From NCBI GenBank assembly GCA_013298125.1, contig JAAFJP010000048.1, positions 1 through 34,201 of the forward strand: DNA of 34,201 nt. Reading direction: 5' to 3'. The position numbers and the translations under genes are program-made. The notes beneath the pieces were generated by a model. That model was given only the letters and a program-made list of their open reading frames with translations, searched no databases and was not told the origin of the DNA. The DNA is from Cytophagales bacterium (GTDB lineage: Bacteria; Bacteroidota; Bacteroidia; Cytophagales; Spirosomataceae). Of this stretch, positions 3,677-34,169 are shown one piece after another (position 1 is the first letter of the stretch; every line of letters begins with the position of its first letter).

Positions 3677-3682
3677 TTTTAT

Positions 3683-3852
3683 CTATTTTGCTGTTTTTCT
3701 ATTTGCTATTTATCTATTTGCTATTTATCTATTTGCTGTTTTCTATTTTGCTGTTTTCTATTTTGCTATTTATCTATTTTGCTATTTATCTATTTTGCTA
3801 TTTATCTATTTTGCTGTTTATCTATTTTGCTGTTTATCTATTTTGCTGTTTT
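3683..3852 (-). repeat. Minisatellite of eleven 14-16 bp units in the toxin-antitoxin leader
   Basis: On the + strand the units read CTATTTTGCTATTTAT with variants (CTATTTGCTATTTAT, CTATTTTGCTGTTTAT, CTATTTTGCTGTTTT). Unit lengths from left to right are 16, 15, 15, 14, 15, 16, 16, 16, 16, 16 and 15. Identical variants cluster next to each other, a sign of recent unit duplication. On the coding strand of the antitoxin the unit is ATAAATAGCAAAATAG and the last copy ends 6 bp before the ATG. With the promoter near 3892-3925, the array would be transcribed as a roughly 200-nt A-rich leader. Confidence 0.92.
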
Positions 3853-3865
3853 CTTAGAAAACAGC
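3845..3865. repeat. Perfect 9-bp hairpin with three-base loop closing the minisatellite
   Basis: GCTGTTTTC (3845-3853), TTA, GAAAACAGC (3857-3865). The left arm is part of the last repeat unit, so the hairpin marks the promoter-proximal edge of the array. It would be at the very start of the antitoxin transcript. Confidence 0.7.
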
Positions 3866-6777: not shown

Positions 6778-9578
6778 ATCAATAAATTTCCATCAGGGTC
6801 TCTTAGATATACCTCATTTCCAATGGGTTTTGATAGAAAATTTACCCCATTTTCAATTAATCTTTTATAATCTTCCTCCAAATTTTCAACTCCAAAAGCA
6901 ATTTTCTGATAGCCTGTTTGTGTGAATGGAATGGGCTTTGCGTTGGCAATAGTTTTAGGGTTATCAAACTGCCATATTTCTAACAACATATTGCCTACAT
7001 TAAACCATGCTCCTCTTAATTTTAGGCTGTCGATATTGGCAATATCGTCTAATTTTGGGTTGTTTTTGATATTATCAACTCGGTTAATAGGCTTGTTTCC
7101 AAACAGTTGCGTGTAAAATTCTACCAAACGATCAATGTCGTGAGTAACGATGGCTACGTGACCAATCCAATTGTCTTCTGTGAATTTTGGTTTGTCTAAT
7201 TGCTCAACCTCCAACATGATATTATTGGCATCTCGGATGTAAGCGTACTGAATGCCAAATCCTCGATTTACTGGTGAATTCCCACGACTTACGACGGTTG
7301 CTCCGTTGGCTTTTGCTTTTTCATAAATACTGTTCGTAGCGGGTGATTGGTAGCATACGTGCGTGATGCCAGAGCCTTGTACGGGCATCACGGATAGCTG
7401 ATTATTTCCCTCAAAATGGATTAATTCTAATTGCCCATTATTACCTTTCATCATAACAGCCTTACGGTTATGATGTTGAAAACCAGCGAGTTGTTCTACT
7501 GAAATAGGCTTTTTGATTTCTGTTTTACTTGCTTCTTTCAAGCCCGTTACTTTCTCATAAAACTGTACAGATTTATCCAAATCATTGACCGACAGGCTCA
7601 CATGGCTGATGCTTTTTATGGAAGATTTGGGCAGTGTTTCAAAGCATAACAATACATTTCCAGCCTTCTCGTTAAACTTAGCATACCCAGAATTGACGAA
7701 TAATTGATTGCCAACAATGACTGGTCCAGACGAGTCAAATGCTCCACCGTTGCCTTTTACACCATTAACAGATGTAAACTCTTTATTGGCATCAAATTCC
7801 CATAAAATTTTTCCATCTTGGGTTGAATAGGCGTGAAGAATTCCGTCCAAAGCACCACCAAAAACTAATTCTGGTGTGGCAGTAATGGCGGCGGAAAGTC
7901 CTGAGCCACAAGCCCATTTTATACCTTCGGGACAACGATTTTTCTCCACCATCGACCATTGCAATTTTCCATCTGCCACATCAAACGCATGAAGTCCTGG
8001 GAAAGCGGGCTTATGTTTATCCGCCTCATAAGCCTCACGGTCATTCACAGGCACATAAAGCGTTTGATTATTACTCGCCATTCCCCAATGAATGCCCCCC
8101 ATAATTCCCCCACGACCAGCCCTTGTTTGCCAAACTATTTCTCCGTTTTTGTCAGGATTGAGGGCGTAAATCATCCCAGATTTTTGTCCTGCCAAAACCA
8201 AATCTTGTTGCCCTGAAACTAAAATCGGGGGAGCTCCAAAATCAAAATCTGGACCAAAATTCTCGGGGCAGTTTGCTCCATTTGGCATGGTGCAAGCGGC
8301 ATTCCAAGCATCTTTTCCAACGGTTTGGCGAACCCATTTTATTTGTCCATCCGATAAATTCATGGCGATAATGGCATCACTATTTTCGGAAGTTGGTTGG
8401 GTATAATTTTCACCCGTTCCTACATACAAAAGTCCACGTTTCAGGTCTATCGTTGGACTCGACCAAACGGGTGCTCCCGATGGTCCAAAATTCTGTGTTC
8501 CTTTGGCGTTGATGCCTTGTGGTTTTGGCTCTTCCGTAGTATAAGTTTTCCAAATTTGTGAGCCATCTTCTGCATCAAGAGCCACTACTGAACCTCTAAA
8601 AGTACAGCATTGGTATTTCGGATTATAGGCTGAAATAACTTCCGTAGAAGAGACAGGAATGTACAAACGACTTTGATGTAAAACCAAAGAACCCGTAATG
8701 GTTGCGACTTCATGCGAATCAATTTTTTTCTTCCAAAGCAATTTACGAGTCTGAATATCAAGGGCATAGACATTGGCTTTAAAGTCACCAAAGTACAAAC
8801 GATTCGCATTTCCGTTTTTGTCAGTACCAATCGAAATGGCACTTCTTATCTCATCTTCCGCCTGAAATGTCCAACGAACGCAACCCGTTTTTGTATCAAG
8901 TGCATAAATAACGCCATGCTGACTGGCGGTGAAAAGTGTATTGCCCGCCACAGTCGGTTGCGACCTCGCACGAGTGGCTTCTGGAAAAGCAAACGCCCAT
9001 TTTAGAGTCAAATTACCCACGTTTCTTGCATTGATTTGAGCATCATTTACGAAGCGTTGGTTCGATAAATTCATGCCCCAATTGCTGACTTTAACAGCCA
9101 GATTTTTAGCGGATTTTTTATCGTTAAAATCACAAGTACCAGCAATGATTTGAGGCTTTTGCGTATCAATTTTTGAGATAAATTCTGCCACTAATTTTCT
9201 ATCTTTTGGACTTAGTGATGCCCCTTGCACTTTCATCACACCAGAGGTCAGCGTTTTGATGATGGCGTTGGAAGAAAGCAATTGCAAAGACTCAAATTTA
9301 GGTGCTTCTTTTACCGCTCCGTTATGACAAAATGAGCAATTGGTTTTATAGATTTCTTCGCCTGTAAGTGTATTTTTTGAAAAAATATCAATCTTAAAAC
9401 TTAGAAGAATTATTACAAAGAATATATATTTTATCGGAGTTTTTAAAAAATTGATTGCAAGGTTAAAAAGTCTTCCAATATCCATAGCGAGGGGTTTAAA
9501 CCCCTCGCTATGGATATTGGAAGGGCATCTCGCCAAATAGGTTGTAATTATATATCTAATTGCCAATTTCTGATTCAT
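6756..9578 (-). CDS. Exported cytochrome c / PQQ-type beta-propeller dehydrogenase fused to two VOC (glyoxalase-like) domains
   Basis: The 940-residue open frame contains, in order, a hydrophobic signal at about 50-62 (YIFFVIILLSF), a mono-haem cytochrome c domain with CSFCH at 81-85 and a likely axial Met near 115, and a quinoprotein propeller at about 150-650. The propeller has repeats such as VIYALDTKTGCVRWTFQAED and resembles cytochrome-c-type polyvinyl-alcohol dehydrogenase. VOC domains follow at about 655-780 (ISHVSLSVNDLDKSVQFYEK) and 787-940 (IGHVAIVTHDIDRLVEFYTQ, ending RDPDGNLLMLIEK). The likely reaction is oxidation of an alcohol or sugar in the periplasm with electrons passing to haem; the substrate is unknown. 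Residues 1-40 are doubtful: they run through a perfect 50-bp palindrome (9473-9522). An internal ATG at 9485 lies in the palindrome and would give a 909-residue protein with the same signal sequence. Confidence 0.85.
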   Translation of the reverse strand: MNQKLAIRYIITTYLARCPSNIHSEGFKPLAMDIGRLFNLAINFLKTPIKYIFFVIILLSFKIDIFSKNTLTGEEIYKTNCSFCHNGAVKEAPKFESLQLLSSNAIIKTLTSGVMKVQGASLSPKDRKLVAEFISKIDTQKPQIIAGTCDFNDKKSAKNLAVKVSNWGMNLSNQRFVNDAQINARNVGNLTLKWAFAFPEATRARSQPTVAGNTLFTASQHGVIYALDTKTGCVRWTFQAEDEIRSAISIGTDKNGNANRLYFGDFKANVYALDIQTRKLLWKKKIDSHEVATITGSLVLHQSRLYIPVSSTEVISAYNPKYQCCTFRGSVVALDAEDGSQIWKTYTTEEPKPQGINAKGTQNFGPSGAPVWSSPTIDLKRGLLYVGTGENYTQPTSENSDAIIAMNLSDGQIKWVRQTVGKDAWNAACTMPNGANCPENFGPDFDFGAPPILVSGQQDLVLAGQKSGMIYALNPDKNGEIVWQTRAGRGGIMGGIHWGMASNNQTLYVPVNDREAYEADKHKPAFPGLHAFDVADGKLQWSMVEKNRCPEGIKWACGSGLSAAITATPELVFGGALDGILHAYSTQDGKILWEFDANKEFTSVNGVKGNGGAFDSSGPVIVGNQLFVNSGYAKFNEKAGNVLLCFETLPKSSIKSISHVSLSVNDLDKSVQFYEKVTGLKEASKTEIKKPISVEQLAGFQHHNRKAVMMKGNNGQLELIHFEGNNQLSVMPVQGSGITHVCYQSPATNSIYEKAKANGATVVSRGNSPVNRGFGIQYAYIRDANNIMLEVEQLDKPKFTEDNWIGHVAIVTHDIDRLVEFYTQLFGNKPINRVDNIKNNPKLDDIANIDSLKLRGAWFNVGNMLLEIWQFDNPKTIANAKPIPFTQTGYQKIAFGVENLEEDYKRLIENGVNFLSKPIGNEVYLRDPDGNLLMLIEKKE
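9473..9522. repeat. Perfect 50-bp palindrome across the 5' end of the quinoprotein gene
   Basis: The 25-bp arms 9473-9497 and 9498-9522 are exact reverse complements with no loop. The centre is GAGGGGTTTAAACCCCTC, and the outer ends are TTCCAATATCC and GGATATTGGAA. It encodes SNIHSEGFKPLAMDIG in the gene on the minus strand and carries the ATG at 9485. No target duplication is visible at its edges. Confidence 0.9.
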
Positions 9579-28934: not shown

Positions 28935-29133
28935 AAGCCTGAAAGGCTTGAATATGAATAGCCGTATGTGAAACGTACGGTTATTATGAATTGGGATACT
29001 ACAACTCTGAAAGAGTTGAATATAAACAACAGAAATTTTGCGAAAGATATTTAACCCCGTCGGGGTTTTCTTCTCCATACATTTCTTCCGTAAGTTTCAC
29101 ATACGGTTATTCAAATTTAAGTCCTTCGGACTT
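28935..29133. repeat. 199-bp compound palindromic element: six mirrored hairpins with three-base loops
   Basis: Hairpins in order are AAGCCT-GAA-AGGCTT (28935-28949), CCGTATGT-GAA-ACGTACGG (28962-28980), AACTCT-GAA-AGAGTT (29003-29017), AACCCC-GTC-GGGGTT (29053-29067), CCGTAAGT-TTC-ACATACGG (29088-29106) and AAGTCC-TTC-GGACTT (29119-29133). The first and last thirds are reverse complements of each other: the linker GAATATGAATAG mirrors TTATTCAAATTT. Where the two halves differ in a stem, both sides change together (GCCT/AGGC versus GTCC/GGAC). I see no clear target duplication and no ORF inside. It starts 10 bp after the HipB-like gene. Confidence 0.85.
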
Positions 29134-32618: not shown

Positions 32619-33389
32619 TTAATGATATTTTTGTTTAAAATTATAAGCCAGTCCGAATGTCAAAATGGTGTCATCCTGCCTGATTTTCGTTACTACGATG
32701 TTTTCAAATTTATATGTGTACAATACATTGAATGAAAAGCCTTTCCAAACAGGAAAATCCAGACCAATTTCATATTCTGTTCGATAATCATTACTATTGG
32801 TAAAGGCAGGTTGCCAAAAAGCATCATAATACAAACGAACACGCTTTTCAAACAAGTTATGAAAACCTGAAAGATAAACCGTCCCACGTCCTACGGTTGA
32901 TGTTTTCTCTCCATCATATTCTGTAAAATTAAAAGAATTTCCATTAAATTCCGTGTTCTCATAAACTGCATTTGCCGATAATTTTAGCGTATTATTTGGT
33001 TGATTAATCATTTGCCAAGTAAACCCAGCCCCTGCAAAAATACGACTGTCAATTTTACGCCTAAAATTGGTTGAAATATAAGCGATAGCATAAGGATAAA
33101 TCTTATTTTTAGGCTTGAAATAAAGGTAGTTTCTACTAAACAAGTCGTTATCGGCTTTAACGGCAAAAGCTTGATAGAGGCTACTATTCTGGGTTTTAAA
33201 AGCCCAACTATTTTTAGTAGTAACCGTAAAATCTATCCTACTTCTGACAGAGGTAAACCGTACATTGCCATCTTGAAAATTACCTGTCAGCGAAGCCCTG
33301 ATTTGATAATGCAAAGTATCACTTTCATTGAGTTGAGATAAGCCGTCAAAGTTATTCATGACTAACATGAAGATGAAAATTTTTCTCAT
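32619..33389 (-). CDS. DUF481-like outer-membrane beta-barrel protein
   Basis: The 256-residue protein has a signal peptide (RKIFIFMLVMNNFDGLSQ) followed by alternating amphipathic strands: YQIRASLTGNFQDGNVRFTS, RIDFTVTTKNSWAFKTQNS, NYLYFKPKNKIYPYAIAYI, RLYYDAFWQPAF, FSFNVLYTYKFEN and a final TILTFGLAYNFKQKY. This matches DUF481 proteins, described as salt-stress-induced outer-membrane proteins in other bacteria. Its function here is unknown. Its ATG overlaps the stop of the upstream lipoprotein fragment by 4 bp, so it is probably translationally coupled to that broken gene. Confidence 0.82.
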   Translation of the reverse strand: MRKIFIFMLVMNNFDGLSQLNESDTLHYQIRASLTGNFQDGNVRFTSVRSRIDFTVTTKNSWAFKTQNSSLYQAFAVKADNDLFSRNYLYFKPKNKIYPYAIAYISTNFRRKIDSRIFAGAGFTWQMINQPNNTLKLSANAVYENTEFNGNSFNFTEYDGEKTSTVGRGTVYLSGFHNLFEKRVRLYYDAFWQPAFTNSNDYRTEYEIGLDFPVWKGFSFNVLYTYKFENIVVTKIRQDDTILTFGLAYNFKQKYH

Positions 33390-33766
33390 TTGATTTTTAT
33401 TAATGGTTTACCATAAGATTTGGGTCTTGCTGCTTCTTGACAAATATTTTTCCCTTGTTCGGGTCTTGCTCCTAAATAAAGAGTATCGTTTTTTATTGAA
33501 ACAATATCAAATTCCTTATCACAAGCCAGCTTACTCTCTATAAATGAAATACCATCTTTTGTGACATCCGTTTCTTTTTCAAAAGCTAATGCTGTTAATC
33601 CGAAATTTTTGACTACCAACGAATCGGTCGTTTTAAGTGTCATAAATTTTTTATCAAAACCAAAAATGTAATTGGCTGTATTTTTCAAATTTTGGGATTG
33701 ATTTTCGTATTTATAATCTCCAATCCCTCTGAAAGTAAATACTGGTATTTTGGTTTGTTTATCCAT
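33386..33766 (-). CDS. 3' fragment of the interrupted lipoprotein
   Basis: The frame is open from the element's edge; the first ATG is at 33766 (MDKQTKIPVFTFRGIGDYKY). It would give 126 residues without a signal peptide. There is no typical promoter between the element and this ATG. It overlaps the DUF481-like gene by 4 bp. Confidence 0.6.
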   Translation of the reverse strand: MDKQTKIPVFTFRGIGDYKYENQSQNLKNTANYIFGFDKKFMTLKTTDSLVVKNFGLTALAFEKETDVTKDGISFIESKLACDKEFDIVSIKNDTLYLGARPEQGKNICQEAARPKSYGKPLIKIK

Positions 33767-33811
33767 GAAAAGTGTAAATTTTACTTCCCACTTATTATCA
33801 GTAAAAATAAA

Positions 33812-34023
33812 CGGAACTATGTATTATTTGGCGGAGACTTCCAATGTTACACTTCTCCGAAGTGAATATGAGGATTTCTACTATATTCTACAAATGCTGA
33901 ACCTCTCCGAGGTATAATACAGCTAAATTTCGGAGAAATTCAACCTTTGTAGAACAAGATAACCTCGAATCACAGGCTTCGGAGAAGCCCAGCCTTAATT
34001 CCGTCAAATGATACATAATTCCG
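33812..34023. mobile_element. 212-bp MITE-like element with 24-bp terminal inverted repeats, 8-bp target duplication and four triloop hairpins
   Basis: Terminal repeats are 33812-33835 (CGGAACTATGTATTATTTGG...) and 34000-34023, with 21 of 24 bases matching as inverted repeats. Direct repeats AAAATAAA flank it at 33804-33811 and 34024-34031. Inside, from left to right, are hairpins CACTTC-TCC-GAAGTG (33850-33864), ACCTC-TCC-GAGGT (33901-33913), AATTTC-GGA-GAAATT (33926-33940) and GGCTTC-GGA-GAAGCC (33975-33989). A TTCTACAAA / TTTGTAGAA pair lies between them. The whole element is one imperfect palindrome. It encodes no transposase. TSDs of 8 bp occur with several DDE families (for example IS1, IS66, IS256, ISL3, IS1595), but I cannot assign the parent. 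Confidence 0.9.
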
Positions 34024-34169
34024 AAAATAAATTCACGAATGCCATAAGTACCATTCAGATTTTCAACAGAAATACTTTTCCAGTTTCCTAAAATTTCTTT
34101 TTGGAATGTTTGCTCTTGTTTGCAAGAAAAAGAGCAAAGAATACTTAATATTGCTATGTATGTTTTCAT
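33888..34169 (-). CDS. 5' fragment of the interrupted lipoprotein, with tail encoded by the mobile element
   Basis: From ATG 34169 the frame gives about 50 native residues, then about 43 residues read from the element (MYHLTELRLGFSEACDSRLS) up to a TAG at 33888-33890. A longer frame to 34199 exists but adds a non-lipoprotein start. The fragment keeps the export signal but loses the rest of the fold, so it is probably non-functional. Confidence 0.6.
   Translation of the reverse strand: MKTYIAILSILCSFSCKQEQTFQKEILGNWKSISVENLNGTYGIREFIFGIMYHLTELRLGFSEACDSRLSCSTKVEFLRNLAVLYLGEVQHL

Follow-up and report, generated by a model that had tools for sequence, protein, structure and literature searches.

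The window, by which we mean the whole 34,201-nucleotide stretch of DNA that was analysed, comes from an Arcicella genome (Bacteroidota) and carries near its end a non-autonomous element of 212 bp (33804-34031 with its flanking duplications) inserted in a lipoprotein-like gene. This element is likely a composite, in which a MITE of the DDE type (IS1595) carries as cargo REP-like hairpins that belong to a single-strand Y1 enzyme. Both the recognition of the hairpins by that enzyme and the mobility of the element are inferred. The features are as follows:

33386-33803, minus strand: 3' part of the interrupted gene (open reading frame list: 126 aa, 33386-33766; extended by the joined frame)
33804-33811, no strand: left target site duplication AAAATAAA (sequence inspection)
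33812-33835, plus strand: left terminal inverted repeat of the IS1595-type MITE (21/24 against the right end; similar ends on full IS1595 elements)
33850-33864, plus strand: outer left REP-A hairpin, CACTTC-TCC-GAAGTG, with the foot CCAATGTTA just 5' (decayed AAGGTT)
33901-33913, plus strand: inner left REP-A hairpin, ACCTC-TCC-GAGGT, with the foot CTACAAATGCTGA (decayed)
33926-33940, minus strand: inner right REP-A hairpin, AATTTC-TCC-GAAATT in the minus-strand reading, with the foot CTACAAAGGTTG
33975-33989, minus strand: outer right REP-A hairpin, GGCTTC-TCC-GAAGCC in the minus-strand reading, with the foot TTAAGGCTG
34000-34023, minus strand: right terminal inverted repeat of the IS1595-type MITE (pairs with the left end)
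34024-34031, no strand: right target site duplication AAAATAAA (sequence inspection)
34032-34169, minus strand: 5' part of the interrupted lipoprotein-like gene, from MKTYIAIL (open reading frame list; joined frame)

The insertion and its IS1595-type ends

The target duplication AAAATAAA is exact on both sides (8/8), the 24-bp terminal inverted repeats agree at 21/24 positions, and taking out 220 bp leaves a single open frame on the minus strand with zero internal stops. The joined frame has 197 codons from an upstream ATG and 187 from the MKTYIAIL start that was used in a preliminary description of the window, made from the sequence alone. The 8-bp direct repeats, the 21/24 ends and the restored 187-codon frame reported there all held when the sequence was re-examined. 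The 3' part of the gene has no Pfam match at E <= 0.001, and a homologue of it was looked for in the other seven Arcicella genomes and not found; the empty site is therefore supported by the duplication and the restored frame only, and the comparison with uninterrupted orthologues proposed in that description could not be made.

With the window element as query, a similarity search of its own genome returned 35 rows at E <= 0.001, matches on either strand included, and the sister genome, Arcicella aurantiaca DSM 22214 (G007), holds nine copies at 84-85% identity to it. These nine are 213 bp each and 98.1-100% identical to the first among them, a near-identity that points to recent movement; their duplications match at 7-8 of 8 bases in 8/9. 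A search of eight Arcicella genomes for the end pattern, with up to 2 mismatches allowed, found it in six of the eight (57 matches in A. aurantiaca, 20 in the window's genome), while the reversed pattern, used as a control, matched once across all eight. Two end pairs in A. aurantiaca enclose the longer elements L115 and L116 (1,750 and 2,005 bp), which have exact 8-bp duplications. Each encodes a transposase of the IS1595 family (NF033547, 183 and 188.7 bits, cut-off 75; PF12762; PF12760) and each carries a second open reading frame without a Pfam match. A third relative of the transposase is present in the same genome.

As its ends match those of full IS1595-family elements, the window element is an IS1595-type MITE: it has both the ends common with IS1595 elements and the 8-bp target duplication. 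It fails the third criterion for a MITE, derivation from an IS by deletion, because the repeat family that makes up its interior also occurs at sites that lack these ends; "MITE" refers here only to its small size and its IS ends, without implying that an IS lost its middle. The preliminary description had called the insertion a mobile element, and this is upheld by the many copies, their target duplications and the full IS elements with matching ends. The observation that was to refute it, namely that no second copy of the ends exists, is excluded by matches to the end pattern elsewhere in the genome and in the genus. Mobilisation of the window element in trans by an IS1595 transposase is inferred, and there are no movement data. 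No relative of the transposase was found in the window's genome (assembly of 5.85 Mb, 95.5% complete), so the helper of the window copy is inferred from the sister species; in the six remaining Arcicella genomes only G003 gave a match, and a weak one (26%).

The REP-A hairpins and their candidate partner enzyme

The interior holds four hairpins, with TCC loops in the left two and GGA loops in the right two, just as had been described. Scored against dinucleotide shuffles, the single-strand fold has a z of -7.15 for the plus strand as DNA and of -9.43 for the minus strand as RNA; by this measure, and by the copies in its own and the sister genome, the element is not due to chance. The cassette, here called interior A or REP-A, consists of a foot AAGGTT, a 6-bp stem and a TCC triloop, and occurs with and without IS1595-type ends. 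A search with TACAAAGGTT-N5-TCTCCGA, allowing 2 mismatches at most, gave 53 matches for the window's genome, 42 for A. aurantiaca, 12 for G003, 7 for G005, 6 for G006, 4 for G004, 2 for G002 and none for G001. Reversed controls gave 0 to 3 matches per genome (2 in the window's genome, against the 53 real ones), so that the count of 2 in G002 is not above background. The earlier verdict that the inside is unlike an ordinary MITE is thus supported, since it forms a distinct family of repeats.

REP-A matches are arranged in convergent pairs, divergent pairs and tandem arrays. Stand-alone clusters were read from hand-picked loci, and 21 of the 23 are arranged + + - - (outer, inner, inner, outer). 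Pairing at the four variable stem positions was counted over 168 strict hairpin units: it is Watson-Crick in 95, 92, 96 and 77% of them, and sliding the pairing by 1-2 bases lowers this to 1-33%, except for one slid column at 70%; all four pairs are intact in 114/168 units, with 14 different half-stems. The units are related by descent, and these percentages should not be read as a probability. Nine other MITE-like copies keep hairpins that are 93-100% identical to those of the window, with linkers at 44-71% and ends at 58-86%; these copies were hand-chosen from similarity matches to the window element, a selection that may be biased towards conserved hairpins. Several of them have decayed ends yet intact hairpins, an argument that it is the hairpins themselves that are being retained. 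The suggestion of selection on structure made in the preliminary description is supported on two grounds, on the compensated stems of the 168 units and on the conservation of hairpins above linkers in the nine copies.

REP-A does not have the GT[AG]G directly 5' of the hairpin that defines canonical REPs: its 5' foot is AAGGTT, and CTAC occurs further 5' in inner units only. For lack of that foot we call the repeats REP-like and not canonical REPs. The REP-like criterion is met by dispersed copies (dispersal was counted in Arcicella only) together with arrays beside a candidate cognate TnpA_Y1 gene. Two observations on individual copies may be recorded here. Three stand-alone four-hairpin cassettes (L208, L028, L024) share weak outer ends, GATGTTACGCA(A)..TTTAAGGTT, which carry little information per column and could be the decayed ends of another MITE family. 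One MITE copy (L005, 1505-1743) has 14 extra bases in each inner hairpin, at about matching places on either side of the centre, and these may be insertions into the hairpins.

Y1 transposases were searched for because the repeats resembled REPs. The search (PF01797) gave 47 matches, 30 of which were examined as loci. Many A hairpins lie within 1.5 kb at three of the 30, and all three are the same gene, tnpA-A, in A. aurantiaca, G003 and G006; the other 27 have no A hairpins beyond one weak match. In all three genomes tnpA-A adjoins leuC, plus an esterase-like gene where the contig reaches, and the three loci with A hairpins are exactly the leuC-linked ones. In the 3.3 kb examined at leuC there is neither tnpA-A nor an array in the window's genome, G001, G004 or G005, and leuC was not found in G002. 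The window's genome therefore has REP-A without tnpA-A, at least at that place.

The motifs of TnpA-A (PDHIH, FEWQ, YILNQKEHH) satisfy those of TnpA_Y1 subclass 1.2 (DH[IV]H, WQ, Y---Q--HH), and NCBIfam names the protein an IS200/IS605 TnpA (77.9 bits, cut-off 55). Membership of class 2, the RAYT or TnpA_REP enzymes, was considered and ruled out, despite the REPtron-like surroundings, by a score of 26-27 bits against the NF047646 cut-off of 80 and by Y---Q--HH in place of Y---NP.

A scan of named genomes with the A. aurantiaca protein gave 373 relatives, of which the best 80 were kept. All three subclass motifs are present in 76/80, partly by construction, as the peptide patterns of the scan included stretches of these motifs. 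Full flanks were available for 53 of the 80 loci (49/53 with all three motifs), and 38 of these 53 genes have a hairpin in at least two copies within 700 bp. Such a repeated hairpin occurs in 0/53 distal regions, which are probably mostly coding, and in 1/16 of a gene-flank control (16 of 19 PDDEXK_3 loci). When only Arcicella is considered, 7/14 strong and 7/15 weak Y1 loci, the latter mostly Y---NP, have such a repeated hairpin nearby; hence a hairpin neighbourhood is neither universal in this class nor restricted to it. Y---Q--HH was seen in 11 of the 14 strong loci, with 3 unreadable.

Hairpins of the A type, at least two within 700 bp, accompany 18/80 relatives, 17 of them within one 19-row clade (support 100/99) that includes Arcicella, Runella, Saprospiraceae and Lewinellaceae; among 78 distal regions, a single one contains a hairpin of this type. 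The A label changes 4 times on the tree against 16.4 when shuffled, and 0/500 shuffles are as low. The bootstrap of this tree is not quite settled, and only two Arcicella tnpA-A lineages are independent, the G003 and G006 proteins being nearly identical. Hairpin type thus tracks TnpA clade, as an enzyme and its site would; the association is shown, and recognition is inferred, without binding or cleavage data. Recognition by a transposase had been raised as one role for the hairpins: the enzyme is likely a Y1/HUH TnpA, different from the mover of the element, though here too recognition is inferred.

Other interiors between similar ends

Among the fetched loci, 40 elements are bounded by an end pair: the two full IS and 38 short elements of 86-239 bp. 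Most of these loci were fetched because they match the end pattern or resemble the window element, and interior A is favoured as a result. Left out of the 38, with no end pair at threshold, are 13 of the 20 stretches in one end-pattern fetch as well as L126-L128 and L134; many single end matches are outside it too. Target duplications match at 8/8 in 25 of the short elements, at 7/8 in 4 and at six or fewer bases in 9. Cross-paired flanks from different elements, taken as a control, match at 8/8 in 0.07% and at 7 or more in 1.9%. The A+T content of the exact duplications is 95.5%.

The short elements fall by motif into interior families A (13), B (7), C (9), D (1), E (7) and other (1). A palindrome-family motif is carried by 37/38, and assignment rests on it; L053 was placed by its palindrome alone, and the four shortest E interiors depend on a short motif. 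The palindrome score beats the best of 40 shuffles in 32/38 interiors and does not in six (L088, L129, L132, L133, L221, L223); the two shortest, of 38 and 40 bases, did not beat their shuffles and are possibly near-empty MITEs. At 110 Y1 loci examined, the motifs of interiors C and D are absent, and the short E motif appears as single matches at 5. The REP idea was tested for interiors A and B only, and C, D and E remain unlinked to any examined Y1 gene. PDDEXK_3 genes, which we take to be of the GxxExxY type, were tried as partners of interior C and rejected: CAC[AG]GAT occurs at most once per locus in 19 loci. An inverted repeat resembling interior D lies in the window itself, at 85-174 (35 nt, 89%, type CCCCTCTCC...GGAGAGGGG), and leaves the first open frame unbroken.

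Palindrome B, GCGAGGGGTTTAAACCCCTCGC, stands on both sides of a different Y1 gene in the window's genome, and a variant form of it does so in G002. With up to 2 mismatches there are 21 sites in the window's genome, 5 in G002, 2 in G005 and none in the five other Arcicella genomes. Of the 21, three flank the Y1 gene, and nine have an IS1595-type end no more than 150 bp away. One kind of MITE thus houses two or more palindrome families, each of which has a Y1 gene of its own. The window has a perfect 52-bp palindrome of family B at 9472-9523, with a right flank, CGCCAAATAGgttgTAATTA, that by eye resembles a decayed IS1595-type end; the site is outside the 9/21 and might mark another MITE of this type in the window, older than the one at 33804-34031. 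At another Arcicella Y1 gene (L173, 758-1439) nine hairpins of two types (CAACGGATTTTAATCCGTTG, CGGTAGATTAAAATCTACCG) lie upstream, likely a further enzyme-hairpin pair.

Competing explanations and comparison with known systems

In the composite reading, an IS1595 transposase acting in trans would have cut and pasted the window element by its ends, and TnpA-A would bind and cleave the hairpins as single-stranded DNA, by analogy with TnpA_REP on REPs. The hairpins would have reached their place between the IS1595 ends through insertion into, or capture by, a MITE, and the IS1595 machinery would then have spread the cassette, giving two unrelated transposition systems in one small element. A weakness of this reading is that neither machine is shown in the window's genome: there is no IS1595 relative, and no TnpA-A at leuC. 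A bolder version, in which a subclass 1.2 Y1 enzyme of Bacteroidota has its own REP-like hairpins and these are spread in Arcicella mainly by IS1595-type MITEs, is one that we lean slightly against. As an addition to it, these MITEs might require or favour palindromic cargo.

The rival that survives best is chance nesting, in which REPs and MITEs both favour A+T-rich intergenic DNA and at times insert into each other. It is unlikely, but some results favour it: exact duplications are 95.5% A+T, REP-A is also found alone, and two very short interiors have no clear palindrome. Against it stand the palindrome-family motif in 37/38 short elements and the later amplification of one cassette as a unit (nine copies). 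Less credible is a role as RNA signals, with hairpins kept for mRNA stability, termination or processing and a merely historical TnpA neighbourhood. The strong RNA fold and the compensated stems speak for it, and MITE RNAs reportedly affect neighbouring mRNAs (PMC3733652); but divergent and tandem arrangements occur beside convergent ones, hairpin type follows TnpA clade and is absent from those Saprospiraceae and Arcicella rows whose TnpA is of another type, and the six Rfam matches are all far under gathering scores. The folded-RNA role offered in the preliminary description is on that last count unsupported. An ordinary MITE, that is, an IS1595 element without its middle whose interior folds by accident and has no partner enzyme, is very improbable: its ends and duplications are ordinary for the type, as in the ISHwa6-related MITE of Haloquadratum walsbyi (165 bp, IR 25, DR 8; PMC3852290), but the interior is not IS sequence, is widespread without the ends and tracks a TnpA clade, and its hairpins are 93-100% alike while linkers drift.

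The composite element resembles IS1595-family MITEs (PMC3852290) in being short and non-coding, with ends of about 25 bp, an 8-bp duplication and a helper of the IS1595 type. It differs from them in that the Arcicella interior is the palindromic repeat of a different system and that several unrelated palindromes lie between similar ends. With the REP/BIME and TnpA_REP (RAYT) "REPtrons" (PMC6006769, PMC8266576) it shares short hairpins preceded by a conserved 5' foot, their dispersal as inverted pairs, and arrays beside a low-copy HUH/Y1 gene with one hairpin type per enzyme. Unlike REPtrons, REP-A lacks the GT[AG]G foot, its enzyme is of class 1 (Y---Q--HH) and not Y---NP, and many of its copies lie inside DDE-type MITE ends. 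TnpA-A is like TnpA_Y1 subclass 1.2 in its HuH motif DH[IV]H, WQ and Y---Q--HH, its length of about 150 aa, its low copy number and its occurrence in Bacteroidetes. The survey of Quentin et al. (2018, PMC6006769, Table 1) enters REP "no" for that subclass, whereas repeated hairpins lie within 700 bp of 38/53 TnpA-A relatives. TIMEs, the Tn3-derived miniature elements that mobilise mosaic segments (PMC4133298), also have miniature ends carrying other DNA, but they belong to the Tn3 family, and the summary of that paper does not mention REP-system cargo.

We saw no reports of REP-like cassettes in a DDE-type MITE, or of hairpins for subclass 1.2, in the open-licence literature searched. REP-A offers a candidate DNA partner for a class of HUH enzymes listed in 2018 as REP "no" (PMC6006769). 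Nesting in MITEs is a possible route by which hairpin repeats spread through genomes, and the REP-like cassettes within a recently amplified DDE-type MITE in Arcicella make one such route directly testable. If the bolder reading were true, "domesticated" single-strand transposase systems would borrow the mobility of a DDE transposase.

Two further repeats in the window complete the inventory. At 3679-3865 there is a low-complexity tandem array of TTTATCTATTTTGCTA-like units with 8- and 16-base spacing. At 28935-29133, two 46-nt arms that are 83% complementary are separated by 107 nt, between genes that we take from their translations to be histidine-kinase-like and glucosamine-6-phosphate-deaminase-like.
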